Assembly: GCF_041260155.1 (NCBI RefSeq)
Contig: NC_091928.1
Span: 47,222,137 to 47,286,136 of the forward strand
Length of the DNA stretch: 64,000 nt
Source: Ptychodera flava
Taxonomy: Eukaryota; Hemichordata; Enteropneusta; Ptychoderidae
Reading direction: 5' to 3'
In this document: positions 33,462 to 64,000 of the stretch, one piece after another
How the letters are laid out: the number at the start of each line of letters is the position of its first letter
Numbering within the stretch: position 1 is the first letter of the stretch
Program-made: the position numbers and the translations under genes
The notes under the pieces: model-generated
The model's input: the letters and a program-made list of their open reading frames with translations, nothing else
What the model was told of the DNA's origin: nothing
Databases searched by the model: none

Positions 33462-34079
33462 CACAGTTCGACAAATCAATCGATCAAACTAATACTAGTA
33501 ACTGACCTTGAGTAATTATAATTTTATTAACAAATCAAGAAATTGACTCATTTTGAGTAAAGTACCTCATTGACTTCTATAGTTGACGCACAGATTTATT
33601 ACCCAGGTTGCATTGTAAGTGGCTGATTGAAAGCTATATGCTGATCACGTGACAAAAGAAACAGCATCACTGAGGGAAAAAATCAATTTTCATCGACGCA
33701 AAGTTTTAAAATTTACAAAATTTTATATCGCCCTTTACATCCAGTTTACTGAAAGACCTTCTTGATACTTACATGCGATCTTCCCGGTTTTGCTAACAGT
33801 TTAACGAACTACTTTTCGTTTAATTTTTTCCACTAGTATAGTGATTCTAAAATAGGATGTATTTCTGCTTCAGAGTCAAGTATGGCATCTGGTCATAACT
33901 TATCAAATACACTGTGTTAATTTGACAATGTATCGTCATGGAGACCAACTTTACGCGCACCTTTGTCTGAAAACTTGTAATTCCGGTTAGTGCTAGTGAA
34001 TGGTCCTCGGGACCGATATTCGGTATTTTTCCCCACAGAGTTGGCACGGGGTTAGCGGCATTTTCGAATTAGTAAATTG

Positions 34080-35065: not shown

Positions 35066-35161
35066 CTATTTTGTGGCCGGAAACCTGACCTCTAACCATT
35101 CTCTCAAAAAATCTGTCATCAATTTGTAAGGGTCATCGCACTGTTTCTGTATGGTGTTACC
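35066..35161 (-). CDS. Deiodinase-like gene, last 29 codons and stop, cut off by the transposon
   Basis: On the minus strand, right after the target duplication copy at 35156-35161, the frame reads on for 29 codons (starting TIQKQCDDPYKL, then FLREWLEVRFPATK) to TAG at 35066-35068. The block FLREWLE fits the end of iodothyronine deiodinases (human DIO1 has PEEVRAVLEKL). Joined over a single GGTAAC to the exon ending ...MAYIGN at 60908, there is no frame change. The 25.7-kb element therefore entered one continuous coding exon. The 3' UTR with its SECIS should follow to the left. Confidence 0.85.
   Translation of the reverse strand, partial: GNTIQKQCDDPYKLMTDFLREWLEVRFPATK
35156..35161. repeat. 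Target site duplication, left copy (GTTACC)
   Basis: GTTACC abuts the left terminus TACCAGGCGCC. The identical hexamer abuts the right terminus at 60908-60913. Confidence 0.9.
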
Positions 35162-35365
35162 TACCAGGCGCCAAATGTAAAATAATTATTTTACACATTA
35201 GAAGAACATATTCATAAGAAAAGGATGCATCTGCATGCATTATATCACGCATACAATAAAAAAAGCTAGCTCTTATAGCATATATATACATAAAACAATA
35301 CAGATATAGGCCCCTAAGTTAATACAAACATATGTGAACCCATTCACACGAAAGCATTTAATAGT
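35162..35365. repeat. Left terminal inverted repeat
   Basis: The first 63 bp match the right end at 61 positions. Similarity then fades but continues in blocks to the matching 'atatgtgaacc.attcacac' (35327-35350). It contains the perfect 18-bp palindrome GTAAAATAATTATTTTAC and the palindrome GGCGCC, both candidate transposase sites. Confidence 0.9.
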
Positions 35366-35940
35366 CACATACATACATGCATACTGCATGCATACATACA
35401 CATACATACAAACATACATACATACACATACATACATAGAAACTTACGCACGCAGGCATGGACTTACGCGCACGTACATGCATACATACATTCATTCATA
35501 CATACATACACACGCATACATATAAACTTACGCACGCATGCACAGACACATACGTACGTACATGTATGCATACATACATACACACATACATACAGACAGA
35601 CAGACAGACACCCACGCATCCATACAGACATACATACCTACACACACACACATACATACATACATACATACATACATACATACAGACAGACAGACAGACA
35701 TAAAAACATACATACACATACATACATACATACACATACATACTACATCACACATACACACACATACATACATACATACATACATACATACATACATACA
35801 TACATTACATACACACATACATACATCCATACATACATACATACACACATACATACATACATACATACATACATACATACATACATACATACATACATAC
35901 ATACATACATACATACATACATACATACATACACACACAC
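35366..35940. repeat. (TACA)n tetranucleotide array inside the left TIR
   Basis: About 575 bp of CATA/TACA units with scattered variants (cagacagaca, cacacg). It mirrors the (TGTA)n array next to the right TIR in inverted orientation, so it is probably part of the original long TIR. Repeating Tyr-Ile-His-Thr frames here are artefacts. Confidence 0.95.
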
Positions 35941-36734
35941 ATCCACTCCCAACAATTCACATGTAGGCCCTATATAGAATGATGGAGGCACACACGAACA
36001 TGAAGTCGATCCGACACGCACAGATAACGTTTTGCAACACGCATGCGCACATTGACAAACTTTCACACACACACACACACTGTCACCAGTATACACACAC
36101 AGCTGCAGCTCGCGCTAAAGATCCATACACAGATCTAGCTTGATACTGCAAGACCGGGGGCACACGCCCAGCGCCTCGACCAGGTCAGTAACAAATGCAC
36201 GGTGTCACTAAATACCCAGCGAAAAGAAAGAACAAACAAACAAACGTCTAATCTTGTACCGAGCGTCTTTCACCAGTTGCAAAGTTGGCAAGATAAGATT
36301 CCCATCAGTCAAAAAATACGATTGTAATAACTGGCTCTAGCCCGACATTTTTCCCTTGACCAATTGTTTTACCGCGGCAGGCAAGCAATCACCAGGCGGA
36401 ACGTTTGATAGGGTCACGCCCATTATATTACACTCGGAAGTTGGACGTTCTAGTACGCTTCATCCTGAGCTGAAGTGGTGGTGAGATTTTGTCAGGTAAA
36501 CCATTTCACGTGTCTACGTGCATCCCAATTGCTCCAGGACATTAAATCATGGAAACTCCACAATACCAATGGTGTGCTTTTGCCAGTGATGTAAAAGCTG
36601 TTCAGAGAGAGTGATTACAGGGCTCATACCAGAGACATGAAGGTTATCAAATACATGGTAGAAAGAGTGACAATGCATCTGCACTTCAGTAGCAATCTCC
36701 TCCACTGTGTGCAAGCTCAGTGCAACTTGAATGA

Positions 36735-39672
36735 TACAAACCACCATGGACTCGTCGATATTCTGACGGATTTAAAGCAGGCGTTACATGTGTTATTGAG
36801 AAATGGGTTGAGAAAGCACAAGAAGCCGTACATTTAACAACCCAGGATAAGAGACATTCATATGCAGCCTGCCCCAAAGTCCATACAGGCCAGCCAGGGA
36901 GACCTTCTTTCTTATTAGATCCCAACATAATCAAGCAGATGTTGTCAAATTCTTTCAAGGTAGCTGATATCGCCCAAATCTTTCAAGTTTCTCGCCAAAC
37001 AGTCAGGAACTGTTTAGTTAGAACTGGTTGCAGCCCTAAACACGTTAAATACACTGACATAAATGATGCCAGTCTTGATGATCTTATGATGGAGTTGAAA
37101 GTTTGGGACCACTTAAGAACAGTGGAGAGAAAATCTTACAAGGTGTGTTGAGAGCTTTAGGAGTTCGTATTCAAAGGAGAAAACTTAGAGACTGTATGAA
37201 CAGAGTAGAACCGTTTCAACGAGCTCTTAGATGGCCTCTATTGAAAACAAGAACCAAACACTCTGTGTACAATGTGAAAGCTGCTCAGAGTTTATGGCAC
37301 ATTGGTAAGTGTATGTTATCACATTTATAATATTTACATGTATGTACCAGTTTAAACTGATGTTATCGTCCAGACCAAAAATAAAGTTTTGTTTCCTGAG
37401 AGAAATAGGGTAGGTAGATGTACATGCAGGTCTTTAAATATTTTGGTTGTATTTTACCCAGCCTATTGATACACAGCACCAAAATGATGGAAAAATAGTC
37501 AAAAGTTACAGCTAATGTCCCTTTAAAATCAGAAAATGAAAAATATCAAAAGATATAGCTAGTGCATCTTTAACTCTAGCAAGGAAATATAAGTTTAGGG
37601 CCAGGAGGTTTGAACTAGGGACCCATCTGCTTACCAGAAACACTAATTTTTTTTAAGGTACAGTGCTCATGGTCTGTACATGTAATTGTGTGCGCCCCAA
37701 CGGGAAGGCTGTTACCCAATGCAACTTGTCATTTCCACCGACCACAAGTCACACAGTTTTGCTAAAATCAAAGAAAAGACTGATTCTGAGGGCCTCAACT
37801 CTATGCATTTGAATCATAGCGCTTATGACATCAACAGGTCTAATAGACCACTGCCTTTTGAGGAGAGCGATCACTCCACTCGCCTACCACTTGCACAAAT
37901 TAAAATCCATGAGAGCAATTTTCCACTTGCGTAGATACCAACCAACCTGCACAACAGCTTGATGTTATTTTGCAATACATGGGTAACAATAAGTTTACGA
38001 AATGAAAATAGAAATAATCTGTCATCATTTTGCAATCTTTGAGTACTCTTGTGCAGTTTTTCATAGAAACGCCTGGGCTTTTATTTCATTATTACGATTA
38101 CATGTACATCTCCAACGACCAAAATACTTTTGAAAATACAAATACAAATAAAAAAAAAAAATTTCGCTCACGTGACTATTTTTAAGGGACCTATTAAATC
38201 ACTCACCTACCACTCGCCTGGATGGTTTCAGGAAAGTGATTTTGATCTCTCCTGCCATTTTTAAAAGACATGCCCTGGTCTAAACCATTATCTTACAGGT
38301 ACAAGCATTGTTGACCTCTTGACATTTGGACAATCAGCAGACTGTGACAGACAGTTTATCCAATGTAGCTGGCATACAGTCTGTTCATGGTCAGAGAGAA
38401 CAAAAGATATGCAAAATTACAGTCGATTGTCAAAATGTGACAATGTCAACAATATGTGCTTGTTCCCCTACAATAATGGTTTAGACCTGTCGCATGACTT
38501 GTGGTTGGTAGAAATGACTTCTATCAGGTAACAGCCTCCCCTGAGGTATATTTAGAGCTAAATTACGCTTGCCCAACCCTAATATCATATTTTGTGCCAA
38601 ATTCTGTCAGCAACTAAATTTATTCATGAACCATCAGGGCTCACATCTGTGACATTGTTTGCAGGTCTGATAGATAGATCATTTGCATCATCATTATGAC
38701 CTGTAGTCTCTGTTAACTATTTTGAGTGAATTGCTGTCAAATTTTGCTTTTGGTTTGTAAGCAATGTTCTTCATGGGTTAAAATCACGCTGATAATATGC
38801 AAACTGCTAGAATGTACTTGCATAGTGTCATTGCCAGTATTTTTTGTTATAATAATTTTTTATTTTCAGATGGCCTTGAAAAGTTGCAACGTTGGAAATT
38901 GTATGTTCATGGTGGCATAGATGGTTACTCAAGGGTTGCTGTGTACCTGACTTGTGCTAATAATAAAGCAGCTGCAACTGTTTTTAGGGCATTTTATAAT
39001 GCTACAATACAGTACGGTGTACCTTCAAGAGTACGATCTGACTTTGGCCAAGAAAACTCTGATGTTGCAGCATACATGCTTGCTACAAGGGGTGAAGGTA
39101 GAGGTTCATTTATAGCTGGTATGTCAGTCCATAATCAACGCATAGAACGTTTACATCAAGACACATACAGGAACAGTATTCAACATTTTCATGAGTTATT
39201 CTATAAAATGGAAAGTGATGTCCTACTTGATCCTAGCAATGCTGTGGATATATTCTGCCTACATTATGTGTTTGTACCTAGAATCAACCAAGCTTTGCAA
39301 GTATTTAGAGAGGGTTGGAATGAGCATCCCCTTAGTAGTGAAAAATGTCAGACACCCAATCAGCTTTGGTTAAAAAGTGTTGTTGCATTGGAAAATGCCA
39401 ACAACACTGCCATAAAAGACCTATATGACCCCCCAGTGATCGATAGTGGAACATACGGTGTTGAACATGTTAGTGAAATTTGTGATCACAGCAGGATTGG
39501 AGTGCTGGATATGAATCATGAAGAAAATGAAAGTGAAAACACTCTTCACCTCAGTTGTGAAAACCTTCAAAGGCTCCGTGAAGCAATTGACCCATTGGGG
39601 CCATCTAATAATGATGGAGTTGACTTGTATGTCAGTGTTTGCACCTTTGTTGGCAGTATTTTGATGTCCTGA
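36735..39672 (+). CDS. DDE integrase-type transposase of the giant element
   Basis: Two exons are visible: 36735-37304 and 38870-39672 (GT-AG). Exon 1 encodes GRPSFL and a helix-turn-helix ([19 protein letters not shown]), as in the family of animal integrase-core genes. Exon 2 is an rve-like catalytic core ([17 protein letters not shown]). The acidic residues are Asp in WHIDG, Asp in [10 protein letters not shown] and Glu in HNQRIERL, a D-56-D-34-E spacing as in IS3 transposases and integrases. The first Asp codon is split by the intron (G at 37304, AT at 38870). One single-base frame change lies near 37100 between helix-turn-helix and core. The true start is unclear because no ATG precedes the conserved part, so an upstream exon may exist. 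About 455 residues are visible. Confidence 0.88.
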
Positions 39673-40597
39673 TTGTACAGTGAAAAAGCTGGCATATAAT
39701 GTAACAGTATAGACATATTGTAACAGTATGGTAAAATTGAACCTTTTTTTTGTTCTAGTGACTGTAAGTTGCCCCCAAAGTACATGTAGTCTGTTTCCGT
39801 CAGGCCAAAGGGGATGCAGAGGTATGCTGTTACCCAAATACAGTTGTTATTATGTGTTTTACAACACAACTTATCCATTTTCTTAATGATTTCTTCCTTT
39901 GAAAATATTACAAATCAAGAAAAATCTACATTATCACATATCTATATTGCAGGCAACACCTCCATTTTTACAGGTGGTGCTCTCAAAGCCATCTATGAAA
40001 CAGTTGATGGAACTGTCACCAGTTTTGTTATAATTTGAAAAATGATACCTGATTCCACAATGATCCATCCAACATTTGCCAAATCACAACAGAGTTTGGA
40101 TCAAGTGTGTTAAAATGCTGAATGTATGCTGCAGTTTGTACCACTGCAATAGTTCAAAAAACAAAATGAGAAACATGTTGGCATATTGATTGTAAAGTCT
40201 GTAAAGAGTATCAAAATTTTGCATGCCTTTAACAACCGGTATTTTTAATGAATGCAGCCTTTCCTAAAGACTCTAGAGCACCCAAGTATGTGTACTTTAC
40301 CTTAGTCCAGCTGTTAAGAATGAATTGTGTGTTTTATTAATATCAGTAATATGTAATCTAGTGGTTTAAGGGATATTTTTAAAAAATGTTCTCTTTCAAC
40401 AATACCAATGACTGTTACAGATATACATGTACAAGCTCTGTGGAAAAGCAATACACTGTGTATTTTAGGATTCTGTAGAACAAGCAGCTGTACCAGGGTA
40501 GAGATTACAAAGAAAATTACAGACTTGAGGATCCAGGACAAGAAACAGTCCCTTTCAAGCAGAGTCTCTTCTTTCAAACACAGAGTGAGAAAACTCG

Positions 40598-41063
40598 TAT
40601 AAACTATATATCATTGGAAAGCATTTATATTGGGGAGCTGAGCTATGGACATTTCATTCTTATTGTTTGCACAAGGATCACGTGACAGTAAATTTAAATA
40701 CCCTTCCAAAAACCAGTTTTCCCCACTTCCTGTGATAACGCTGCAATATTTCCGGTTGAAATTTGCACCAAGGGTAGCCGATATAGTATTCTCAAAAGTG
40801 TTTCTGTGATTTTTTCTATCTATTTTCGTTCAAAAGTTATTGGCAGTTAAATATTTTAGAAGACGATTTGAATCGCTCAAAAACACATATTTCATTAAAA
40901 AAATTCATGTAGAAATCTTACAGCTTTATCACAAGAGGGAAAAACTGAGTTTTGATAGGGATTTTTAATTTCTTGTCACGTGATCCTTATGTAAACAATG
41001 ACAACAAAATTAGCATAGCTGAATTGCTACATATCTAGGCTTTCCAATGGTATATAGTTTATA
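40598..41063. mobile_element. MITE with long terminal inverted repeats
   Basis: The left arm TATAAACTATATA...cattggaaagc...ggatcacgtgac (40598-40685) is repeated inverted at 40977-41063. The arms are about 88 bp with roughly three-quarters identity. It has no coding capacity and is nested inside the giant transposon. Confidence 0.8.
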
Positions 41064-43150
41064 GGGGTTACCATCCTAGTATTTGCCACACAATTCTTAG
41101 TTTTAATGGGTGTGTTTCTTGTCTTGGAACCTTAAAATATATCAAAAGTTTTAAATACAGTAAAACTTTTCTAAACCAAGCACTGAAATGACTGAGAAAA
41201 CTGTTTTTATGTACAAAGGTGCATGGTTTATAGAGGTTCCTTAAGGAGGAGCACGCCAAATTCCATTGCATGCATACTTTGAAGGTCAGCTAGGAGGTCA
41301 AATATGACTATTCATATGTGTTAAAGGGGAAGGTTACACAGTGATTGTGTGTTCAGCAATAAAAAAATCTATGAAAAAATGGTGCAAATCCGTCTTTGTC
41401 ATTAACTTTCACTTACCGATAGAACGATGGCACCCATTTGAAAACCATAGGTTATAGGTAGATGTGAGATAAGAGCCTAGGACTGGACTGCACTGACACT
41501 TATAGGGCTTCCCTATAGTCTACAGCCAAGGAAGCCCCAAAATAAAAAGGTCAACATGTAAAAAATCGGGCAACAACTGTAGAGGTTATTCTCTTAACAA
41601 AATAGCATATCTTTTTGATGAAGGTAAGGTGTCAACTGTAATTAATCCAAGAACAGAAGTTGAATGAAATATTAAAAGCGAAATCAATGGCACATTTTAA
41701 TGGTGTAGGATATAAAACTATGGGTGAAACTATTAGGCAGTACCACAGGAGGGAGTTATTGAAGGGGAAATAAATAGTACATTACACAATAAATTTGAGA
41801 ATCAATATTTTTATTGGCCAACTTTTAACACTGATTATTTGTTTTATTGTACAAATGGCTTTTATGTTTCATTGTGTTGATCAACAAATATATCATTCAA
41901 AGTTTCAAATAACATGTTTATTTCTAGATTTATACATGCTGATGACATTCACAACATGAACTTCTTCATAGGACCTGACAGAGGTAAATTAAAAAAATGT
42001 AACCGTAGAAATATTTCTTGTACATGACACTAATAAAATGAAGAGTGGCTGCTTTTTGACTTTTTAACACCACAAAAGGGAAATCTGACTTGCAAAGGAA
42101 AAATGTGTTTAACTTGGTTTACTATACATGGGAAATAGACCTAGATTGACCTTACTGCTGTACTTCTGTTCCTATAAAGTAAGAACAGTTTGATATTTTC
42201 AAAAAACATTTCCACAATTATCATCAGTAAGTTTCCCAACTCTGTACAGAAAAAACTATACCATGTAACTTCAACAGCAAGTTCGCCAAAAGGTGCATCT
42301 ACCATATTTTCATTTTTAGCCCCAACATGTCGCTAATGTGGAGGGAGACTTTACAGTTGAGGCCTAGTTAATGAGTATATTGTGAGATGTCTATAGTAGC
42401 GATGAATATTTGAGAAAATTGGAAGGTATCTTGAGGTTTGACAATTTTGCAGTTACAGCTCAGGGGCCTTTAAACTGTTACTTCTGAAGCAATTTTATGA
42501 TGATCTTGTAAGTTAGAGTCCCATTTTTCAGCATACTTCTCATTGATAAAATTAAAGATTTTTTTTATGTTTTAATTATTGTTAATATGAAGAATAGACG
42601 ATGTTATAAAAAACAAACCTCAAAGATACAAATCAGGGTGAATTGTTGGTAAATTTTTCTACTGTGCAATAGTTGATAAACAAACTAAATTACTGTGAGG
42701 AAGTTGACATCAATGACACAAAAGTAAAAAAAATTCAGAATTTGCTTTCTTTTAACTGTGTGTGCTAGGAGACTTTGTTATTGTTATTCACATGGCTCTT
42801 GTACTTCTCAACTCACATTTCTTTCGTAGAATTTATGCATGACACAAACACTGTCAATTTTAAATGAAATCAGAGAAGCCATGTCTGACTACTTGGTCTG
42901 GATAAACTTGAAATAAGACTGCTGCCTTGGGGCAATATCAGTTGATCACAGTGCAGTTGATTAAATGAAATTGATCTAGGTCTGTTAAAAAAGTGGCTGC
43001 CAGGTTGTCATAGTACAAGAAGATTGTTGAGAGTAAAGTAATAATACCACATTTCATTGAATTCAAAATGTATGGCATGGATGTATAATGACGCTGGACA
43101 GACCTGTGGATATTGATGTAGCACATCCCAACAGACACACGTTTCCCCAG

Positions 43151-43275
43151 ACCATCATGCTGGAATAACCTGTAGCCCTCCTCATGTGTACATAATACTC
43201 TACAAACCCAATGATTGGGGTATATTAGAGAGTATTATGTATGCAGTAGTGCAGCTTTACAACATGATGGTCAAA
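43151..43275. repeat. Short foldback element
   Basis: 'gaccatcatg...gtacataatactctacaaaccc' is followed closely by its complement 'ggggtatattagagagtattatgtatgc...catgatggtc'. Confidence 0.7.
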
Positions 43276-43385
43276 GAAATAAGTGTCTGTGCTCATTTCA
43301 TATTTTTTTGTGACTACATCTTTCAAGACTGAAAGAGTCTACGGAATTTACTGATAGGGACCTTCAGTTAACATATATACTGTAT

Positions 43386-43390
<5 letters not shown>

Positions 43391-43460
<70 letters not shown>
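43391..43460. repeat. (TA)n microsatellite
   Basis: About 35 uninterrupted TA units. Confidence 0.98.
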
Positions 43461-43467
<7 letters not shown>

Positions 43468-45218
43468 AATGTTACAAATAAGGCTTTCTGGGTTGCTTTC
43501 TGGGCAAATCAGTGTTATTTTCATTACTGTTACTAGAAATGTAACCATAAGTATATGAACACACATCATCAAATTTAAATAGGTATGAAAAATCAGTCCC
43601 TCTTATTACGTATTCTACTACTTGAACAGCAACATGTCAAAATGAAACCAACAAACTTATGTAACAGCAAACACAGCTTTTCTACAATATAGCTTTTCTA
43701 CAATATAACAATAATTTTTCAAGGTAACAATATAAAACGTCTACACACTACTACATATAATAAGCAGTTATATTCATGCACTATGAAGTGTTTGAATTCT
43801 AGAAACACTGGCTAATCCATAGTGTAATTTGAAAGAAGAAAGCCACATGCTAAACAGTTGTGTCACAGCTCTGCTCTCACTTTACTTGGTCTTCCAAAAA
43901 TGTCTGATTCAATAATATGCTCTTCAGCAAATTGCTTGGTGGCACATACAATTGAATGTACACCTCTATTGTTACATTTGAAATTGCATGCATTTTTCTC
44001 AGTAAACTATTTGTAAGTAAATTTCATATCAATTGGACCATGGTTTCTATGGACCTCTAATAATTCATTATGTTGTAAGATTGTCCCTATGGACCTACTA
44101 TACATGCCAAACAGTCACTGACAAAAGTCAAATATTGGAGGATGCACAAAGAGTACACCGCCGTCCCAGTGGAGGTAATCAGTTCTAGGTTGCTGACAAT
44201 GACCAGCCAAATACTTTTTTCGCTTCTGTGTTTTGAAGCTACAATGTAGGTGTTGATAACATTTTTATGTAGCCATAAGATGACCTACTTTAATGTTACC
44301 GGTATATGACAAAGCACAGAATGTACTTTGAGTGATTGGACAATTTTGATTCTTTTTCACACATGCACAGTAACATATTTAGTTATCACAGGACCAATAA
44401 ATATGGTCCTGTGGGAAGGCCATGTCCATATACTGCAATAGAGAGCTCTAAATTATCATTTAATCTGCAGTGAAATAAAGCTGAAAATGATCACATAAAA
44501 TAACAATAACAAAACTAAGTTCCACAGATATCAAAGAGTGGCCAAATCTAGTTATACATTGCAAACCCGGTACATGTGTACCTGCTGAATACAAAAACAA
44601 AAAAACTGAAAATATAATGTTAGGGTTCAAAAGTATGGTTTGTCCTGCCTCCATAAACCAGAATTTTTCTATCACCTATTTGAAAACATGGCTTTGAACC
44701 ACCATTTAATCTTGTTGCTTTTACTCATTTACTTAGATTCACTTCTACCTGAGAGAAGACAACCCTGTAGACTAGCCTTTGCTCTCTGCTGGTGTATGAG
44801 AAACTTTTGATCAAAATTTATGATGACATTTATCAAATATGTAAAAGTCTGACAGTTACTTAATGTTTTGGGATGGTTCCTATGGAAAAAAAATCTTTAC
44901 AATATTTTTGAGCCCTAAATATACAACACAAGGTTTGATAAGAAAATAACAGGTATTGTATTGGAAATACTAGTGGCCCTTTATGCAAACACACTGGAAG
45001 CCTATATACAGCCACATTTGCAAGACAGACTTAAAAATGCCAGTGTGTCTCTTTGCTACTTTTGTTCTCTGGAAAAGGCATGCTTGTACATGTAGGTGTG
45101 TATGTATAGCACTTCTTGAGGGTGACCTTTCATGTGCTTTCATACTGTTCCCAATTGGTTTTTGGAAACAAAGCTTATTAAGGACAAGTCAGGTTGTCAG
45201 ATAACAGACGATACGTCA

Positions 45219-48158: not shown

Positions 48159-51100
48159 CTGACAAAAGAAACAGACATACAGTATTCATTGTTTATATAT
48201 CACTGACAGGAAACACGTTTAGAGAAAATAATTAAGGCATCTTTTTCTTCTGCAGGTAAGACCTGAATTAAAACGTGTAAGAAACTACTGTCATTTATAA
48301 AAGCCTCTGAAACCATGCAGGCATAAAAGCTGTGCTATAGGAAATGACAAACATTAGTGAATGATGTATGGTCTTATAGGCAATGGTACAAGTAGGATAT
48401 TTCACCTATAGGTCCTATTTTATAGAAACCTATAGGTTCACTTATAGAATTCTATCAATGCATAATGGTTTGGTGTTGGAATGTACTATTGGCAAGCTAG
48501 AAGTTTTCTGAAAAATTTTTAAGCACAGATAGTTGACAATAAACCTATTTCAGAAGCTACACACTGCTCATGGGGGCTAAAGCAAGTGATTGAGACTGTT
48601 GGAATTGTAACAGAATTCTTCAATCCACATGGTTCTGAATCTGGAACAGATAATATTTTTTGGCAAAACGAAAGTACTTTTTTAGCATAGTACTGATTAT
48701 GTCAAATGATATTGACTGCAATAATTAAAGTCTAATGTATTCATGCACTAAATTTCAAAGCCAGGCATAGAAAAGGCTTTTTTATAGGGTGAAGAATGAA
48801 CAAGAGACCTAGCGGCCGATAGAGCTCCGCTGTAATGAGTTGCAGAAATGGTGAAGTAACCAGTTAGCAGAATGTATGCAGGTTGTGATGACAAGCTGAA
48901 TATTTGCACCTAAACTGACATGTCTGTTAAGCAACTTTTAGATGTATGGAGGTCTTCAGGTGTTTTCTATCAGGACAATTTGATAATATCTTACTAATAC
49001 AATCCCTAAGAACCTGCACACCAAATTTGAAAGAAATCCGACTTGCAGTTTCACAGAAAATGATTTTGACCAAAAACAGGTAAAAATGCCCCCAAAATAT
49101 GACCATTTACTTCTATCATCCCTAGGAACCTGCATAATAAATTTCAGAGCAATCTGGCCAGCAGTAACAGAGAAAATGATTTTTGACCAAAAATGGGAAA
49201 AATTGCCCCCAAAATACAAATATGCAAATTTCACCACATCTGTAGGAAGTTGCATACAAAATTTCAAAGCAATGAGACAAGTAGTTCCTGAGAAGAAGAT
49301 TTTTGAAAAATTTTTGACCAAAAATGGCAAAAATTGCCCCCAAAATCCAATCATGCATATATCAGCACAATTTGACTAAATGTTACTTATATCATCCCTA
49401 GGAATCTACACACCAAAAATGGAAGAAATCTGACAAGCTGTTTAAGAGAAAATGATTTTTGACCAAAAACGGGAAAAATTGCCCCAAAAATACAAATATG
49501 CGAATTTCACCACAATTTGAACAAACATGATTGAGGTCATCCTAAGGAAGCTGCATACAAAATTTCAAAACAATAGGACCAGCGGTTTCAGAGAAGAAGT
49601 TGATTGAAGAAAAATGTTGAGGGACGACGGACGGACGACGATGGACAGTCCCCCTATCTGATAAGCTCCGCGTTGCTGACAGCTAGGCTAAAAACATCAC
49701 CCCATAATACTGGTATACAGTTATTTGTACAGTACTCTATATTTGGATTTTGTCATAATCTGAGTACAACCCAACAGGCATGCATTCTAAATTTTAATGT
49801 ACAGAAAACAAGTAGTGTCTTTAAAAGCTGATTTTGACCTATAATGGCAACATTTTTCCAAAATTTAAAATTACATGAGTAAGTGCACATTTCATTTATG
49901 TCACCCTAAATGACATGTAGTACCTGATTTCATAAATACATATACAGTACAGGGGTGAGCAAATCAATTCCCCAATCACTAGCCCCCCAGATTAGTAGCC
50001 AAAACACTGTACTAGCCCAGCCGCAGTTTCCACTAGCCCACCATAGTGACACTGCAAATTTTAGATTGTATAATGAAGCAGAATAATGTCCTTATGTATG
50101 CCATAGAGCTTTAGCTGTGCATTGAGTTTCAACAAAAATCAGTTCAGGGATGCTTGAGTTATACATGTAGTTCAAAGACACAAAAATTACAACAAAATGG
50201 CCATCTCAGTGATTGGCATATTGGATCATACATCGCAAAATTAATATACATGCATATGCATGCCATAGTGCTTTGCCTTTGTGCCAAGTCTGTACAAACT
50301 CGGTTCAGCGTTGTCTGAGAAATGGTTGCGGACAGAATGGGGACAGATGGGACACCATATGCAGCAAAAAAAATTCATTGAAAGGCCCTGTACAGACCCT
50401 AATATGACCCTGTGTTACAGGTCTGTGCCGGCAAAGATAGCCAATTACCATGACAGGGGCTGATCTGTACAGATCTGTGGCCAATGTGCTGTCATGACAT
50501 GGCTGCACAGTGCTGTACATACAGTGACATTTCTGCCTACAGGTCTGTACACAGAACTGTAACACTGCCAGGGTCTGATTTTTGTTCACTGTACACATAA
50601 TTATACCTTTTTTCATTTCTGTCATCAAAATTGGCTATAATTTTTCTGAAAAATTTACACCACTGTAATCTTACAAATTTTCAGATCCTGTATCAGGCCC
50701 TGTAAATTCAACACACACACACTGTTCATACACCAGTGTATCAGTCATGCGGTCAGTGCACTTCATAATTGATACAGTCAGAAATTACATCACTATATTA
50801 TGAAATTCCTGTAATACAAGGCCTCATTGTGACCTGTCCATACACACCTGATATCAGACCATTTTACAGGTCTTGTAACAGGTTATTTCTTAGGGTCTGG
50901 TACAGGCCGGTACTGATCATGTAGACCTTATAGCTATCAAAAATACATTACATGTATTTTTCTTTTCAGGAACTGCATGTTTATTGTCTGTACTTACTTC
51001 CTGTTCTTGATGTCCATGTTTGGGATGCTATATTTAACTTCAACCTAGGTCAAAATAAACACAGAATGTGTAAACACCTAATAATTTTTTCAAATAATAT

Positions 51101-52275
51101 CTACATACATGTATATAATGAACAAAGTGGTGCATTAACTATTATACTGACACTGATACAAATGTCAGATTCACTTCAAAGGGAAATGCGACCAAGTTTC
51201 ACATGAACTACCGGTATATTTCCATCACTGTCAAAATCCCCAACATAACTAGTAATACATTTTATTCATTATTTCATGTTATGTTCTCATTTGCAAATAC
51301 CTTATTAGATAATCTTACATTATTTTGTGAATAGGATTATCAAAATACAGGATAAATTATGTTTCATCAGCACTAATCTTTCATGTTATGTTAGTCATCA
51401 AACATCAGACTTTGCTTTATGATAGAGCTCGTATCTGCTGTGATAGTAATATCCTGGTACAAGGAAAAAATTCAAAAGTGAAATTATCACCACAATTTCA
51501 AGAAAACTCACTCAAGTCACCACTAGCAACCTACATGTACATACCAAATTTGAAACAATTGGAGTAGTGGTTTCAGAGAAGAGGTTTTTTGACCAAGAAT
51601 GGCCAAAAATCCCCCAATGCAAATATGCAGAGTTGATTGCTACAGTTTGAATCAGTTGCGCAGTCAGCTTACCCATAGTAAGCAGCATACATTTTTAAAA
51701 GCAAGTAGACAAGTTGTACCAGAAAAAGTAGACTAAGCTTCTTTCTGTATCATGATGGATGAACAGATGATGGACTCAACCACTGACAATCCACCTATGT
51801 GATAAGCTCTCTGTTGCTGACAACGGCGCTAAAAATTACCTTTCTCTTGCAACAGTTAAAGCTTCAAGGTTAACTTCAGGTTCAGCCGACATTGTATTTT
51901 TGGCTGCATAGAATGCTGCAGGTGAGCAAATGAAGTCAAGGATTACTGTAACTCCTTAAATATTGCAGCACATCATAGTTTAAAAATTATTAATAGGATA
52001 AACAGGTAATTATAAGCTGACAATCTCGTATGCTGAATACATCCTCTGCATTTAAATGAAAATGATTTCCATGACAACATGTCATATGGACTTTGATTAC
52101 CATGTATTATTATATGATACAAAGGATAACAATTTGCAAAAATAAGACAAGAAAAACTGTCTGTGCAAATTCAAAATATTACCTCCAAAATATGTGTCAA
52201 TAATACACATGAAACAATGTGTAGGATAATTCAGTGTTTCAATGTTTCAATGTTGAAATGCTGATTTTTTTATCA
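48159..52275. other. Stretch between the two cargo genes
   Basis: No exon was recognised. It contains the 115-145-bp tandem repeat (48956-49690), a degenerate second copy of the same repeat (51470-51840), and between 50380 and 50960 many scattered copies of 'acaggtctgta'-like strings. An upstream non-coding exon of the ATPase gene may lie here, because its first exon has an acceptor at 48159. Confidence 0.5.
48956..49690. repeat. Tandem repeat with 'gaccaaaaatgggaaaaattgcccc' units
   Basis: Five units of about 115-145 bp share 'aatttcaaagcaat', 'gagaaaatgatttttgacc', 'aaaaattgcccc' and 'tgcaaatttcaccac'. The array ends in 'ggacgacggacggacgacg' and 'tgataagctccgcgttgctgac'. A shorter degraded copy with the same ending order lies at 51470-51840. 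This is a common-looking dispersed repeat, not a gene. Confidence 0.8.
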
Positions 52276-55200
52276 TCAAAGTAATCTAGGTCTCATCAAC
52301 AACATTAAAAGGATATTAATTGAATCATTGCGACCTCCACCTTGTAGATATTTCCACAGAGTGGTAGTCATATTAAAGAGCCCAACTCTTTCATCATCGT
52401 ACATGTACCTGAAAAAAATAAATGATAAAACAGATACTGAGCATAATTGCTTGTAATATTTTTTTTGTAGAACAGTGAAATAAGAATGTTCAGGTATCTA
52501 CCTCTCAATTTCTACACTTTCATGTACGTGTGATTTCCAGTTAACTGAGTAATGTAAATTTTTTCTACAAAATATTTTGCACAATTGATTTACCTCAGCA
52601 ACCATTAATGATGTAGAGTAACTTGTGAAGTTTCCTGAGAATTGTTGTATAGGAATTCAGCGTCATCTTATCATATGTTTTACATGGCTGCATTATTATC
52701 AGACACATCAGACAAAATGATACCAATAATAAATGACACATCATATATTTTGTTGACAATAAATGACAATGCACTATATGTGGGTTTCATTCATGCAATA
52801 CATATAAACATTCAGAGAAAAAGAAGATATTTTTGATAGATGTACATCATTCCCACTGTACATATACCGAGATACCTGCTATGTTCAGAGAGTTATTCGT
52901 TACTGCTTAGCAAGCTGATCCCAAAAGTTACAGAGGTAAAACTGAACTTGTAGATCACTTTCATTGTAAAAGAATCGCTAAGGCCGGGAGAATGTGGCTT
53001 ACATGGGGTTAAATTAGACAACAGCGATTTACACTGCACTAGAAAGCCAAGCTATGTCAACAACGTTACCAATGACGTATTCCAAAACTTGATTGGCTAA
53101 TCATGGCAAGCGTCGCTATGATTGGAGTTGACCTGGACTGGTCAGGTAGGAGACATATTGCTCTGTGTATAGTGAATGTATGCTGACATGTATTGCTCTT
53201 ACCATTCTGACATACTCTTCTTTGTCAGAAGAAAGTAGTGATTTCGGATCTCTGAATGGACAATGACAGCTACTAATTCCAAATTTACAGTCGAATAATG
53301 TGCTAGAAAGTCCTGTGGCTGCAGCAAGTCTTCACATCGTAGTTCCTGTGGTATAGATACCAAACTGTTCATCTACAAGAGAAAAGTATTTCTATAAGTA
53401 TCTTCAACTGCACATCAATATATAACAATGTACAAACAATCATTTACCTGCATCACAATTTATATGTGTACTTATATAGTTAGAGGTGTTTTAAATGGCA
53501 CTGCTACCGTATTGAATACAATACTTCTCTAATGAAGTGCCATGAACAATTTTGTAAGCCTACTGGGAATAAATGTCTAACAGTGGATGAGTTTACCTTT
53601 CCAGAAGCTCCTTGTCGTTCAATAGCTATACACAACATGTTTGGACATTCAGTCCAAAAGTCAGTGTGTTTTACAGTAGAATCTGCAAGACAATAAAAAA
53701 TTAGGTTCTCATTAGCATATCTCTACAAATCACTAACCCCAGTAATCATGTAATTTGAAAACTGGCATTTGCTTTTTGTAATTCAACTGATATCTAAAAG
53801 TAATCCCGACATATTGAACAAAAATCTACTTTTATGCAGTTTTTATTGCTCTGCGGCTTACAATGAGCACTGTACCTTTATTATGTACATGTAAATTAAT
53901 ATCACATTCTAAAGTTAGTTTTTATCGTTTAAATATGCAGATGTCTATGAAATCTTTTAATAACTTTTTTCCTGATATTTAGTCCAAGGCAACTTTACAT
54001 GATTATATCTTAACAGTGAGTGAATATTAACTGCTATACCGTTACATATGACAAGTACAAATGATAAGAACTCAATGATGCCTACCATAATGAAGCTAGG
54101 GACCATCTCAGATTGTCACATAAGTTCAAGAAACAAAATTTGTTCATTTGAATTCAACCGCGCCCTCCAAGTTCAAAACTGCACAAGTGCAATGTTGCAG
54201 TTTGGCTACAGATAATGAGTAATGTTTGCCTCTGATCACATGCACAGTCAAATCATCAGAATAATAAATTGAATAATAAACAAGTAATTACCACATTTGC
54301 ACGAATCTTTTATATTAGATTTTGCTTTGATAAAACATAATTATAGTAAAATCATGTTCACCAAAGTAAGTTTGAAAGTGAAGAAGTTCACCAAATGAAA
54401 TGACCTCAAAAGCCCTCCCCCTTAAACGAACGAATTTCATTTTTTTGAACTTATATGACAATCAGAGACGGTCCCTAATGTAAGAGAAATAACATGTGTT
54501 TGATTGTGACAATGAAACTACTTAATGAAGTTAAATTAATACATCTTAATGGCTGAACAATACTGTTAAGCCCTGCATCTAGTGTTAGCTATGTATTTGA
54601 TAGGCTGGCCATTTCTTTATAACAAAGTCAGCAGCTAGGTTTACCCACAGTTCTAATATACCTGCAGATGCTGAAGCAAATTTCCTCTGAAATTTTTCTT
54701 GGATGTTTACAGCCATGTCTCTCCATTTATAGACATTTTGTCTTGTTAGCATTGCATTCAATATAGCTGGCAAAGTTGCAATGACTCCATCGTATGAAAC
54801 TGGTATATGAACAGAATACCATGAATGTAATGAAATGTTAAGGCAAAATGATATCAAATCATGTATAAAGTTTGTTGATCCATTCATTCATTGTTGTGGT
54901 TTTGATGTGCATTTTCGGAGATATTTTAAAACAATGCAATGTCCTATATCTGTTATCGACTGAAATTTCGCCCGTTGTTTAGAGGGCTATATCCTGCTGG
55001 TTTCAGTCACTATTTTGGGTTTAGTGCGTGCCTTTTGAAAGTAGTTTGGCCCCACAGTGAAAATATGATTTATATTTTAATAGGTGGAAATACGGGCTCA
55101 TATCTTCACTGTAAGAAAAATAGCAGAGTGTCAATACAGACTTCCCATGTATGATAATGGTGCATCATGACAGTAATATATACCCCAATGCATGGTATAC

Positions 55201-58200
55201 CACTATATTTTGCCAGTTCAACTCTGCAGTTGCATGAGTGATAGCCAGAATATGTATATTGAGAAGTGATCAAAATCTTATGTTATACTACATACATCTC
55301 TGAAGATGATGATGTAGTACACATACTAAAGCATGAAAAATTAAACTGTATGTACATGAGAGATATGACAAAAATCCTCCAGTGTTTGTCTACTGAAAAC
55401 TAACAAAAGGATATTATCAATATTTTCTTCCACTATTCCATCATCTTCAAAATCTTCTAACATCCATAGTCTGCTTCTTTTTCCAAAAAGGAGAGACTGG
55501 AAAGCATCATTCATGTCCTGTAATATTTACGTGTTTCCTCATTACTTAATTGGCTATTAAAGGCCCATGAGCTAAACCTCAAGAAGCTTCCAAATTTCTC
55601 AGATATCCATTCTTATCTATAACAATAATGATATAGCCAATACCTGTCTCTCGACAACTTTCAACTGTAGCAGAATAGGCAAAATATTGGACAGAATTTT
55701 ATTCATTTTAAATTTCCCCCATTTTAACAATCTTGCCACATATGTGAGAATCAAAGAATTTTTCGTCAAAGTGGACTGAATCTCTACCTGTCCTTTCAGT
55801 GGTTTGCATTATGCTGTTTATCATATAATTGTATGAAAGCAGCCATATTTTGGTGGGGCATTGTTTCATTATTTGTTGTACTGAAACCTCCCCATGCAGT
55901 CCAACTCAGTGGATAATCATGCTTGAGTAGACATCTCTATCAGTAGGAAAAATCTATGAACAAATTTTTTAATCTAAATATAAAATTATGAAAATAATGT
56001 TAAAAGTTGCAGCTCGTAGGCTTTTAACAAGTGTGCCTTCTGTAAGATGTCTGCAAGAAATAAGGTTGGAATATCAGAAATTTTCCTTATTTGTTCCTAC
56101 CTGGAAGTGACAAATTGTCAAAAACTTACACCAAAAGTTTAGACAACTACATATGTTGTAAAATATATTTACCTGTGTTTCCTTTTGTAATGCATTCACA
56201 ACATGGCCCAGTAATTCCTCCGCATCACTATCTCCTGCCTCAACTTGTATACACTGATAAAACTTTGATACAGCATGTTTATACACTTCAACATCTGTAA
56301 CTTCTCTCTGTCCTCTAAGTGACATCACCTGGGCATGTGTACAAATGACATGATTCTTAACAAAAGGTTTCACTGGTTTAATTTTTCTTCTGGCAATGCC
56401 AGCTAATCAAAGTAACATTTATAGTATGATACATGTAATCGCAATGAAAATTTTGAGTGAATACCTCCATTAACAAAACACATGTACATGTACACGGAAT
56501 TTCATAATTACCAGAAGCAATTTCTACAGTGTCATATTTCTAAAGGCAGATTTTTTTGTCCAAACTTTATTTGCTTCAAAATCCTGAGTTCAAACAAATA
56601 TAACCAATTTGGGTAGTTTTGAAAGGGATGAAAACTACAACATGGAGAGTGCAAAAGTAAACTGTCACAGAGACTTATGTACAGCATGGTTGCAAATAAT
56701 TCATCAAAATAAAATTCTGCCACATATCATTGGCAGTTCATGCAAATTTCTGCTATAGAACCACTGCAAGAGATTTGGTAGATGAAAAGAAAAGTATCTT
56801 GCCTGACAATACTTGCAAACTCTGTGTTAGAGGACATGATGGACAAAAGAAGAGATGTTAATGATTGCTAATATTACACATACCTCTACAAGTGCAGAAA
56901 TGATCTTGGGCATTTGGTGTGGTGGATTCTTTAAATACTTTCCAGAAAGCATGTTCATCACACTGGGAATGCACTGTAGAAGTGTTAAAACAACATTCAA
57001 TGAACAACTGTCACCATTCAAATTCATCATACCTGGAAAAAAAAGAGATAAAAAACATGAAGTAAAAGTTAAAGAGACACATCATGTGTGTTTGTGATTC
57101 TCTTCAATAAACACTACACACTGTTCCGATAGCTGTGGCAATAGTATTGGAATTTTTCACAGAATCACCCCTCCCCCCATTGATATGTTGGATGTTTTTT
57201 TAAAGGTCCATTGGCTGTAACTTGTGTACTATTATTTCAGCGTTTTGTTCAGTATAAAGTATATCAAAGGTAGATTCCTCTCAGCTAACCTCGAAACTGA
57301 ACAACAAGCTTGTCACAAACACGTAAACAACAGGCACTGGCAATGGCAAAGTATCGTTTGGGTCCTCAAAAAGCTTTTAAAATGGCTGGATGACAAAAAT
57401 AATACTTTCCACAACAGAAAAAATCTAAAAGGACTTGAATGTGTACTTTTGACAATAGTTCTGTCAAAGAAAGATCAGAAATAGCTAAGTGTTTTGATAC
57501 GATGTCTACACTAAAATGCTATGGCTTGATATGGCTTCCTTGTTAACCCTCCAATCATCCCATAATGCTGTGCGATTTTCCAAGATGGAGGAAACACAGC
57601 TTTCACCTATATAATACTTTTTTCACGTCTGTTTCATAGAACACCCCCCCCCCCCCCCCTGCTCACTGCTCAGTCAAAATGACCTTTTCAGTAGAAGATG
57701 AACTAAAGCAAGAAACACATGACAAAGTAGTTGACGGAATTTTCTTGAAATACATGAAAAATGTAGTAAAATAAAAAAATTACCAAATTCTGGGTATTCT
57801 TGCACCAAAACGCATATATCTCTGAAAGTTTGATGGTCACTTAATCCATGTGTGGTTTTTACATGTATCACATCATCTGAGGCTGGCGTTTGAAGATCAT
57901 GTTCTGGTACATCTTCTTCACTTTCCACATTGATGTCATCACCATCATCAACTGGTTGCCATGAAATATCTGTCTGTCTGCCTCTTGCCTCACTGACCTT
58001 TGGTTGACTGTTCACTGTTTCATTCGATTCATCTCCACAGACCTGATGAAACTTCTGTGTAGATCTTTGCAACTGCAGCCTTTGTAACCCTCTTACTGGC
58101 ATATCTTGTTTTTCCTGTTCTCTAAATATTCTTCTTTCATCTTTTTTTCCTCTGCTTTCTGTAATGGCTTGTCTTCCAACAGTCACATTGCAGCTACCAC

Positions 58201-58896
58201 CCTCCATCTGTTCTCTATCACTTGACACTTCTACGAATTCCTCAATGTCTTGTATTGATGTACTTTCATCTCCTTCAGTACATGTCTGGACAGTTTCATC
58301 AATTACATGTTCATCATCATCATAATCATCATCATCATCAAAAGTTGGTGTAGCTGGTGGCTGGCCAAGGTGTGACAGCAGCATGATGTACACAACCCTT
58401 CCAGATGACTTTATGTCCCATAGGCCTCTGGCATTATATTTAAATTAGTGGAACAAACTCTCTTTCGTACGAATCCTTTTTTCCTTGGCCGATAATCTAC
58501 ATAAATGTAATCACCATTATAGTTCAAATTGGTCCTCAAGACACCTTTTATTTCATTTCTCACATTGTCTTCTCCCCACAGCTCTTGCACACAAAGGTCA
58601 ACTGTCAGCAATGGTCCACCAGACCAAGTACTTTCATTACATCTCACAACATCATCTATAAGTGGCAAAACACTTAACTTCAAATTGTAGCTCAAGGATT
58701 TCTTTTTTTTCTTCCATGGGGGCTGAGTTGGGGTACTTCCGCTAAAACTACCCATTTGCCTCCTGAGGATAGTTGGCATGTTTGGCCGGCGTAAAATGGA
58801 TTGCACAGCATTTTGTATACCAGGTGTCTGCAACTGCTGTAAAAGTGTATTTGGATCATGCTGATCACCTGAAGTATTCCTGGTATTTGATTCCAT
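52276..58896 (-). CDS. Ubiquitin-specific protease (USP)-like protein, cargo of the giant element
   Basis: Eight minus-strand exons join in phase: 57784-58896, 56884-57032, 56173-56328, 55394-55517, 54662-54799, 53597-53682, 53203-53372 and 52276-52408 (stop at 52276). About 690 codons. The first 370 residues are an unrecognised N-terminal region with a long acidic stretch. The last roughly 320 residues are a USP fold: Cys box GMMNLNGDSCSLN, a block GDSDAEELLGHVV like the QQDAxEFL box, CPNMLCIAIER like the LKRF strand, SIPQELR, His box LVAVIVHSEIRNHY, and WYMYDDERV with GG near the end. Cys, His and Asp are all present, but the Cys box has one extra residue against NLGNTC and no zinc-finger CxxC pairs are seen. 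One single-base frame change occurs near 58430. The donor of exon 4 (A/GTAGAC) is weak. Confidence 0.85.
54097..54477. mobile_element. Foldback/MITE in a USP-like gene intron
   Basis: The left end 'tagggaccatctcagattgtcacataagttcaa' is inverted at the right end 'ttgaacttatatgacaatcagagacggtccctaa'. The inner arms also match. It has no coding content and is nested in the intron between exons 5 and 6. Confidence 0.75.
57643..57661. repeat. Poly-C tract
   Basis: A run of about 17 C in the intron after exon 1 of the USP-like gene. Length is likely to vary or be misassembled. Confidence 0.9.
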
Positions 58897-60015
58897 TTCT
58901 GTTGGAAATAGAGTGAAAGCATACAGTTTTTATGTGTCACAAGAAGTCCAAATCCTACAGTGATATTGGTTTATTTAGCTATATATTGCAGAAATGTGTG
59001 TTGTTACTGGTTATGCTGGGGCTGCAGTAACTATGACACTCAGCCCTGCACATGTGTTTTTGTCTGTGCTGGTGCCAGTTTAGAGATCTGGAATAATCAT
59101 AATTAAAAAAAAAACTCCTTTTTGACATAGCAAGACTTTGGAGAGAGAAATATATGTACTCCTGTGCAATCACCTGTATAAATGATAAAAGTGTACTAGT
59201 TAACTGATAAAGGTGATAAATTGCACATTGAGTGTTAAAAGTGTCTTAGCATTGACATTATTTTTGCATATTTTCAACATTGTATTACAGTTACACAGTT
59301 GCCTGTAAGTGCCTTCAATGTAGAAATTAAACAAGACAGACAGTTTGTTGCAGAATGAAATGTGAAATTAATACATTGATGAGTGCAATTAAGTTTGCAA
59401 ATGAGCAATCAAGTCATGCACACTTCACAACTGAATCATGAGGCATAATATGCCAGCTAACGAAGCAGGATTCACTGAGACTTTGTACAAGTTCTGTGGC
59501 AGATGGGATATGTAGATGCATGATCATCTGATATCGAAATACGACAACTCAGTTTCTCAAGTTTATGAGAGGCAGAATTTATCAACGGGGGCCTTATCAG
59601 CTTCAGCGGCGAAGCATTTAATATACTGAAGTACTGTTCCTCTTCCCCGCCCGTTACTCAACATACCTACACTCTACAGGCCTTTCCTCTCATTGTTCAA
59701 GGAATTCGAATATGCGACTATTTGGTGTTGTGTCTTACACTTCATCAAGTTTGCAATATCCCTTCATGTGAAACAAAAGAACTTACCGAGAAAGTGAGAG
59801 TTGTAATCTCAAAACTGCAAAGAACTGAGTTTCTGGGTCACACGTCTTTTTTTCTCCAAGCAGTCCTCTACACCAAAAAAGCGCCCTCTTCGAAATATGA
59901 TCCATCTTTGCATGTCATCGTCACTACCCTTCGACGCCGCGAGGTACGTAGAGTCCGAGTTAGGAGTGAGCTCCCCGGTGTGGCACTTCCGGGCCTGTAG
60001 ATCGTCGCGTCAGTG
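58897..60015 (-). promoter_or_regulatory. Probable 5' region of the USP-like gene
   Basis: The segment 59880-60015 is clearly richer in CpG than the surrounding AT-rich DNA and lies about 1 kb upstream of the ATG at 58896. That suits a CpG-type promoter or first non-coding exon. A preferred transcription start cannot be fixed from sequence alone. No TATA box was seen on the minus strand. Confidence 0.35.
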
Positions 60016-60039
60016 TGCGTATCTCAGAGAGAGTAGCAG

Positions 60040-60197
60040 TGTGTGTGTGTTGTGTTTGTTGTGTGTGTGTGTGTGCGAGTGGATATACGCATGCGTACTT
60101 CGTTCCCCCTCATGTAAACTTTTCAGATCAGTGTGTGTGTGTGTGCGAGTAGATATACGCATGCGTATTTCGTTCCCCCTCATGTAAACTTTTCAGA

Positions 60198-60243
<46 letters not shown>

Positions 60244-60366
60244 TAGATATAGGCATGCGTATTTCGTTCCCCCTCATGTAAACTTTTCAGAGCAGTGTGT
60301 GTGTATATGTGCGAGTGGATATACGCATACGTACTTCGTTCCCCTCATGTAAACTTTTCGATCCTG
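60040..60366. repeat. Minisatellite of four units with (GT)n heads
   Basis: Four tandem units each consist of (GT)n, then 'gagtagatatacgcatgcgta', 'ttcgttcccc' and 'ctcatgtaaacttttc'. The (GT) part of the third unit is expanded to over 40 bp. It lies just inside the right tetranucleotide array of the giant element and has no counterpart seen at the left end. Confidence 0.9.
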
Positions 60367-60371
60367 TATGT

Positions 60372-60374
60372 GTG

Positions 60375-60433
<59 letters not shown>

Positions 60434-60715
60434 GAGTGTGTGGGTGTGTGTGTATGTGCGTGCGTGCGTGCATGAGTGCATATGGGCTTATGTATGTATG
60501 TATATGCGTGAGTGCATGTATGTATGTATGAATGTATGTATGTATGTACGTATGTATGTATGTATTTACGTATGTATGTGCGTGCGTGAGTGCGTGAGTG
60601 CATGAATGTATGTATGTATGTATGTATGTATGTATGTATGTATGTATGTATGCTTGTACGTATGTATGTATGCACGTACGTATGCACGTATGTATGTATG
60701 TGTCTGTCTTCATAT
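60372..60715. repeat. (TGTA)n tetranucleotide array inside the right TIR
   Basis: TATG/TGTA units with variants. It is the inverted counterpart of the array at 35366-35940. Confidence 0.95.
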
Positions 60716-60907
60716 GTCTTGTGTGAATTGGTTCACATATATGTATGTTTTTTTCACTCATATATGTATTTACTTACGTCTGTATTGATTTATTTATACT
60801 TATGCTATAGTAGTTTTTTATTGATAAACGCATGCAAAATACACCCTTTTCGTATGAATATGTTCTTCTTATGTGTAAAATAATTATTTTACATTTGGCG
60901 CCTGGTA
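60716..60907. repeat. Right terminal inverted repeat
   Basis: Complement of the left terminus, ending GGCGCCTGGTA. It includes the same 18-bp palindrome GTAAAATAATTATTTTAC. Confidence 0.9.
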
Positions 60908-60913
60908 GTTACC
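60908..60913. repeat. Target site duplication, right copy (GTTACC)
   Basis: Identical to 35156-35161. On the minus strand it reads GGTAAC, codons Gly-Asn of the deiodinase exon. Confidence 0.9.
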
Positions 60914-62949: not shown

Positions 62950-63192
62950 CTGAAATCTAAACACATAAGACACCATTCTTTACCGCATTGAGATTACACC
63001 CTTTCCAGTATTACCACAGTAGTAAAGTAAAGGTGTACTTTTGGGATGAAGTAAGAATTTTACACCCCATTTTATTCATTTATCTACATGAAGCGAAGGA
63101 AAAATTAACCATCCATGTAACTAAAGTGTGACCCTGACCTATATACGAACTCACGCATGCGCAACAGGGGTTTGGCGCAGCCTGAACTAAGC

Positions 63193-63353: not shown

Positions 63354-63812
63354 CTAACTTTCATATCCATTCAATCCATAATGTCTTAAATATCTTTCCA
63401 GAGGTGGACTAAATCCTTCTTGTTTTTGTATTTCTAGCGCCTGATGAAATATGTCCTGAATAAGTTCTGACTCCGGAGCCTCCTCGTTCCGAAGGGTTGC
63501 GCCTTTTTCTTGTATTTGTGTAAGCAGCTGTTTATATTGAACATAATAATGTTTATATTTCTCTCGTCTCTTTGCTACACCAGTTTTCCCTTGTATCACA
63601 TCAATAACAACACCTGGTATAGGAGTTAAGGCTAACAGTACCGGAACTGTTGGAATTGCTGCTATTACAGCAGAGCTTACAAGAATTCCCTTAGTAATAT
63701 TAAGAGCCATATCAATTCGACCCATTAATTTATAACTTCGCCGATATGCAGCACTTGTTCTTTCTATGTAATCAGCCAATTGTTCAACGCTTTCAACAAC
63801 TGAGATGTGCAT
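63354..63812 (-). CDS. Unrecognised small protein with a hydrophobic hairpin
   Basis: A single open frame of 152 codons from the ATG at 63812 (MHISVVESVEQLADYIERTS); the frame stays open further upstream, but this is the first good ATG. Residues about 40-75 form two hydrophobic stretches split by proline-rich turns (AAIPTVPVLLALTPIPGVV), followed by a basic then amphipathic helical C-terminal half with KYKHYYVQYKQL. I do not recognise the family. Similar small two-helix membrane proteins occur in some mobile and virus-like elements, so a host origin is not assured. It opposes the promoter at 63193-63300 and is intronless within the window. Confidence 0.5.
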   Translation of the reverse strand: MHISVVESVEQLADYIERTSAAYRRSYKLMGRIDMALNITKGILVSSAVIAAIPTVPVLLALTPIPGVVIDVIQGKTGVAKRREKYKHYYVQYKQLLTQIQEKGATLRNEEAPESELIQDIFHQALEIQKQEGFSPPLERYLRHYGLNGYES

Positions 63813-63859
63813 TTTTACTGTATATGTAAGGGGGGGATAAAAAATAATTGTAGTAATAT

Positions 63860-64000
63860 AGAAAGACAATATGGCAGAAGGAGGAGAAAAATATAGAACT
63901 CAATGATTTCGATGCAAATTTAAATGGTGATGATGATGATGATGCTACTGCTGAAACACTTTTTCCTATGATGATGATGATACCTTTGCAGAAGCCAGTC
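63860..64000 (+). CDS. Possible start of an acidic-protein gene running off the window
   Basis: A plus-strand frame reads NIELNDFDANLN, then five Asp, then ATAETLFP and four Met, open to the end of the window. The GAT and ATG trinucleotide runs could equally be simple repeat. It is divergent from the 63354-63812 gene. Only the continuation of the sequence could settle it. Confidence 0.25.

Follow-up and report, generated by a model that had tools for sequence, protein, structure and literature searches.

What becomes of a selenoprotein gene when a DNA transposon of more than 25 kb comes to lie in its last coding exon? The question is raised by a stretch of 64,000 nucleotides from the hemichordate Ptychodera flava (contig NC_091928.1, positions 47,222,137 to 47,286,136 of the forward strand; hereafter the window), in which a deiodinase gene on the minus strand is interrupted by an element of 25,746 bp. 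The answer that we favour, with moderate confidence, is that a recently active, cargo-carrying transposon of the IS3EU/GingerRoot type inserted at a GGTAAC hexamer within the terminal coding exon of a P. flava deiodinase that belongs to a gene family, and that the resulting allele is null.

The gene is read from three exons and a displaced remainder, all on the minus strand. Exon A (62759..62956) and exon B (61759..61931) are followed by exon C (60908..61079), the 5′ part of the interrupted exon, whose frame runs into one copy of the target site duplication (TSD); GT-AG introns separate the three. Exon A bears the selenocysteine (Sec) codon, an in-frame TGA (62771..62773) at the active-site position, where SISUPP aligns to SCTCPP of the structure 4tr3. 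The joined product matches PF00837 (T4_deiodinase; E 1.8e-29) and, in the PDB, 4tr3 and 9h48. The frame breaks off at 60908 and resumes at 35155, in a displaced C-terminal coding part (35066..35161) that opens with the other TSD copy. Joined over a single GGTAAC, it continues to ...MAYIGNTIQKQCDDPYKLMTDFLREWLEVRFPATK and ends in TAG (35068-35066); positions 35155-35066 hold this stop together with the 29 codons that follow GGTAAC. The original prediction had described this break, its resumption and the unbroken C-terminus, and all three were reproduced here.

Whether the interrupted stretch truly codes for protein can be judged from related deiodinases, of which a protein search covering product lengths of about 116-367 aa found five from 282 candidates. 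P0001 of P. flava differs from the window deiodinase at 3 of 144 residues and reads through the interruption point as GNTIQKQCDDPYK, with no break. Together with P0002 and P0003 of P. flava and P0004 of Saccoglossus kowalevskii it covers the junction in a gap-free alignment (four of the five proteins), while P0005 stops upstream, at the UGA. The interrupted stretch is therefore genuine coding sequence, and the earlier claim that a deiodinase gene of the selenoprotein type carries an insertion in its terminal coding exon holds. P0001 represents either a second gene or an uncollapsed allele; it lies on the P. flava record (62,999,500 bp) from which the window very probably derives, and which it shares with P0002, P0003, P0005 and two proteins of the element, P0007 and P0127; no second deiodinase was found within the window. 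Clusters of deiodinase genes are known in other invertebrates, according to the accessible text of one report (PMC3473315).

The first 88 residues of P0005 have no match in the window and no N-terminal deiodinase exon was found there; any first coding exon would therefore lie beyond position 64000. An open reading frame (ORF) of 181 aa, counted stop to stop, stands 0.4 kb upstream of exon A (63354-63899, minus), its sole Pfam match falling below cut-off. The database models P0001, P0003 and P0004 seem to skip the UGA exon and P0005 ends at the UGA (VVIASSIS), so that these annotated hemichordate deiodinases seem to lack the active site with its Sec.

The interrupting element proper occupies 35162..60907. 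The insertion delimited as 35156..60913 in the original prediction is real, but those limits take in both TSD copies, GTTACC at 35156..35161 (copy 1) and at 60908..60913 (copy 2), which are identical at 6/6 positions, as had been claimed, and read GGTAAC on the deiodinase strand. Two terminal inverted repeats (TIRs) directly adjoin the duplication: compared end to end, the left (35162..35227, plus) and the right (60842..60907, minus) are identical, ungapped, at 63 of 66 positions of this core, which bears out the inverted termini noted before, and their similarity goes on with gaps into long subterminal ACAT/TGTA arrays. The 11-bp terminus TACCAGGCGCC is present as a single copy in the window (35162), as is its reverse complement (60897), and the TIR pattern had no match in viral contigs. 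The ends, TACCAGG...CCTGGTA, show the TA..TA termini, and GTTACC, here from one element copy, the 6-bp TSD length, that the accessible text of PMC10045372 gives for IS3EU/GingerRoot.

These edges bear on two readings of a different kind. An artefactual assembly join might be suspected because the element, compared with its relatives P0006 and P0126 on other records, shows frame changes close to A-rich stretches, and such changes suggest an imperfect repeat consensus, or else real decay; set against the exact TSD, the matched TIRs and the exact resumption of the frame, a join of this sort is hardly credible. We also consider it very improbable that the transposon filled or replaced an older intron at exactly this place. 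The last intron of mammalian DIO1, the human gene included, presumably lies near the aligned residue, and the accessible text of the literature searched yielded no intron positions; at the locus itself there is no intron remnant, the codons aligned by P0001-P0004 start right after the second TSD copy, and TIRs abut the duplication on both sides.

The assignment of the element gains from its transposase, which is encoded on the plus strand in two exons separated by one GT-AG intron (37305-38869). Exon 1 (36549..37304) holds the N-terminal region, with weak helix-turn-helix matches that do not reach the curated cut-off (best E 0.0003), and exon 2 (38870..39672) holds the integrase core, which matches the rva_4 profile at E 1.2e-68 and retains D, D and E, with 34 residues between the second D and the E. 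The rva_4 domain is one that we take to be tied to the IS3EU superfamily, and the TA..TA termini, the 6-bp TSD and the rva_4 DDE transposase agree in fitting the element to IS3EU/GingerRoot.

Its near-identical relatives speak to its age. P0006, encoded on a separate record (40,999,305 bp), aligns with the window transposase over 420 residues and differs at 2, one of which falls where P0006 itself changes frame, about residue 421. Relative to P0006, exon 1 carries three frame changes within 36588-37110 (near 36592, 36800 and 37100), beside A-rich stretches, and these may be genuine damage or errors of a repeat consensus. P0007 and P0127, which share a record, are each listed as 100% identical to what the element encodes, and both map to the window with 100% identity across almost every exon piece. 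A transposase peptide pattern matched seven stretches in viral contigs, none of which encodes a relative. Recent activity is thus supported by near-identical proteins on other records, P0006 and, for the cargo gene described below, P0126; there the element copies are known as proteins alone. An insertion both real and probably young had been argued originally from its exactness; what supports recent activity of the element is these proteins and not the TSD.

What, then, would the interrupted gene still make? If the favoured reading is right, transcripts would end inside the element or retain it, the mRNA would thus lack both the C-terminal 29 codons and the Sec insertion sequence (SECIS), and the UGA would then act as a stop, giving a null allele that is perhaps tolerated given the near-identical P0001 on the same record. 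Potential end signals are close at hand, with AATAAA on the sense strand at 60822 and 60794, less than 115 bp from the junction, and 19 on that strand across the element. A SECIS candidate (33889..33948, minus) lies in the 3′ untranslated region (UTR), 1,118 nt downstream of the stop codon and on the far side of the transposon. If it is genuine, the transposon separates the UGA from its decoding signal, and Sec could not be decoded at all from a transcript that ends within the element, a greater loss than 29 residues. The consequence drawn originally, loss of the last 29 residues, would therefore understate the damage that an unspliced transcript would suffer; the accompanying statement that read-through adds about seven codons is accurate (Y-Q-A-P-N-V-K, then a stop).

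The SECIS candidate consists of helix I (TTGGTC/GACCAG), a core (ATGAC/TGAT), a 10-bp helix II and an apical CAAATTAAC. A strict pattern, written after the site had been seen and requiring helix I, an ATGA/NGAN core, a helix II of 9-12 bp and an apical AA, matches this single locus (minus 33939) over both strands of the 64 kb; when the 3 kb of 3′ UTR were shuffled with dinucleotides preserved, 4 of 300 shuffles gave any match at all. Looser scanning was unspecific, with 63 matches in the window (28 minus, 35 plus; 4 in the 3′ UTR), and the site that it placed top by energy, minus 32749, has a core that we judged unfit and was dropped by the strict scan. The candidate folds just slightly better than shuffled sequence (z -1.86, 11 of 200 shuffles doing at least as well), and in the predicted fold the core region is paired differently. 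Rfam returned nothing at its gathering cut-off in the window, and between 30000 and 36500, at E up to 10, none of its 24 matches was to a SECIS family.

Loss of function is, however, not certain, because the edges of the insertion form a frame-restoring GT-AG pair that the original prediction had missed. As with introners, the whole transposon could be spliced out as a spliceosomal intron of 25,752 nt (35161..60912, minus), restoring the protein and the 3′ UTR exactly; this outcome, predicted from the sequence of the edges, we regard as possible but less probable than a null allele. The candidate donor GT lies within one TSD copy, while the acceptor AG is composed of the element's last A and the first G of the other copy, so the sense-strand edges read G/GTAACTACC...TGGTAG/GTAAC (slashes mark splice junctions). 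On the same strand the filled site is ATCG/GTAACTACC...CCTGGTAG/GTAACACC, and removal of the 25,752 nt from G/GTAACT...TGGTAG/GT exactly restores the codons and with them IGNTIQ. A TTCTAAT motif whose A lies 38 nt before the start of the downstream exon resembles the branch-point consensus. The donor outscores 94.8% of 3845 GT sites and the acceptor 89.4% of 3360 AG sites on the same strand. On splice-site weight tables, however, the donor scores 5.4, lower than any of the nine introns used for comparison (6.2-11.3), and the acceptor 4.8, lower than all but one of them (3.6-13.7); of seven cargo introns looked for, that from 52318 to 51919 could not be recovered and does not belong to the nine. 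Introners for which the TSD supplies one or both of the splice sites have been reported, with family median lengths of 30-654 nt (PMC9860276, accessible text), far short of 25,752 nt, and the AATAAA signals noted above, two of them just within the element, also argue against removal. Other splice routes, with a donor AAT/GTAAAA in the TIR and acceptors ATACAG/AAACAG, were dropped because P0001 keeps TIQKQ.

Since the element ends in TA, exact GT-AG restoration is available only at target hexamers beginning GGT; any coding insertion at GGTNNN, with its 6-bp duplication, would give an intron of exactly this kind. Tentatively, then, IS3EU-type elements might be viewed as ready-made introns for such sites.

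Between splicing and a null allele we favour the latter on account of the weaker donor and acceptor scores and of a missing database product: none of the five proteins found from 282 candidates is identical to the exons of the window gene, and the P0001 cluster is listed with one member. Several points nonetheless weigh against a null allele. An absent product is weak evidence, as UGA disturbs annotation and products under about 116 aa fell outside the search. A target beginning with GGT, which splicing needs, is found in 11 of 628 exon hexamers, so that under the null-allele reading the present site would be a coincidence of 1.75%. The read-through product keeps its PF00837 match (100.3 bits vs 103.1 for the full product), and loss of 29 residues alone may be less damaging, to judge from the sequence. 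The SECIS, for its part, is a candidate whose strict pattern is post hoc and on which Rfam is silent, and two AATAAA (34358 and 34236) stand between the stop codon and it.

The element also carries a multi-exon cargo gene (45222..54887, minus), which joins the C-terminal part of a deubiquitinase (UCH) to a CbbX-like AAA+ ATPase and a tail of QTD repeats, and to which P0127 and P0126 map exon by exon. P0127, the product of the window copy, fuses UCH (38.1 bits, cut-off 23.9) with AAA (47.2 bits, cut-off 21.2), while P0126, on a separate record (47,311,355 bp), comprises the AAA part with the QTD-repeat tail; over a stretch of 146 residues the two are identical. Compared with P0126, the AAA gene shifts frame at 46760-46775 (near 46766), so that the P0127 model ends early. 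A Saccoglossus relative of the cargo protein, P0129, is 64% identical and known as a protein only, and viral contigs held no match for the cargo protein. A possible upstream deubiquitinase exon (56830..57081, minus) has a Cys-box-like motif, picked out by eye alone and negative in Pfam. Farther upstream, two long overlapping ORFs (57677-58929, minus), one starting near MESNTRN and one with an acidic DDDDDYDDD stretch, have no Pfam match; they may belong to a further cargo gene upstream or form the beginning of the deubiquitinase gene. Between 36000 and 60300 there are 123 ORFs of at least 55 aa, part of which entered the Pfam scans. The element also contains an inverted repeat pair (40592-41069; 137 nt, 76% complementary, 204 nt spacing), possibly a nested hairpin resembling a miniature inverted-repeat transposable element, and two short tandem arrays with units of 116 and 145 bp (49002-49595) in a cargo-gene intron. 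Elsewhere in the window are a weak, below-cut-off retroviral-protease-like ORF (14850-15626, plus) and an above-cut-off DOMON-domain ORF (26557-27039, minus).

The locus offers a clean, recent test case for whether a full-size DNA transposon can turn into an intron as soon as it inserts, and for the fate of a selenoprotein gene whose UGA and SECIS have been pushed 25 kb apart. Were splicing to prove correct, the new intron would be far longer than the published introner family medians, and a selenoprotein gene would have survived the displacement of its SECIS by 25 kb. In any event, the element described here is of the IS3EU type, comes from an animal and bears deubiquitinase-AAA+ cargo, a combination whose novelty we put forward provisionally, the literature search on the cargo having been limited.

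How does this element compare with known systems? Teratorn and Polinton/Maverick, as presented in PMC6431247, where the main text does not use the term IS3EU, are likewise large, TIR-bounded DNA elements with many genes; in contrast, no piggyBac, herpesvirus, PolB or capsid domain was matched by Pfam among the 35 element query proteins scanned, some of them overlapping. Introners resemble the present case in that the TSD supplies splice sites wholly or partly and splicing restores the exon (PMC9860276, the main text of which contains neither "hemichordat" nor "Ptychodera"), but theirs are short (medians of 30-654 nt) and present in many copies, whereas here there is one 25.7-kb coding element with the potential to be spliced. 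With IS3EU/GingerRoot, as characterized in PMC10045372, the element shares its TA..TA termini, its 6-bp TSD and a DDE transposase with an N-terminal region before the core; it differs in its length of 25.7 kb and its deubiquitinase-AAA+ cargo, and its placement follows termini, TSD and domain rather than a tree. Fungal IS3EU elements, according to the accessible text of PMC12730594, carry TET/JBP and alpha-kinase passenger genes beside the transposase and share the 6-bp TSD and TIRs of more than 30 bp, while the element described here resides in an animal host and carries UCH, AAA and QTD repeats as its cargo.

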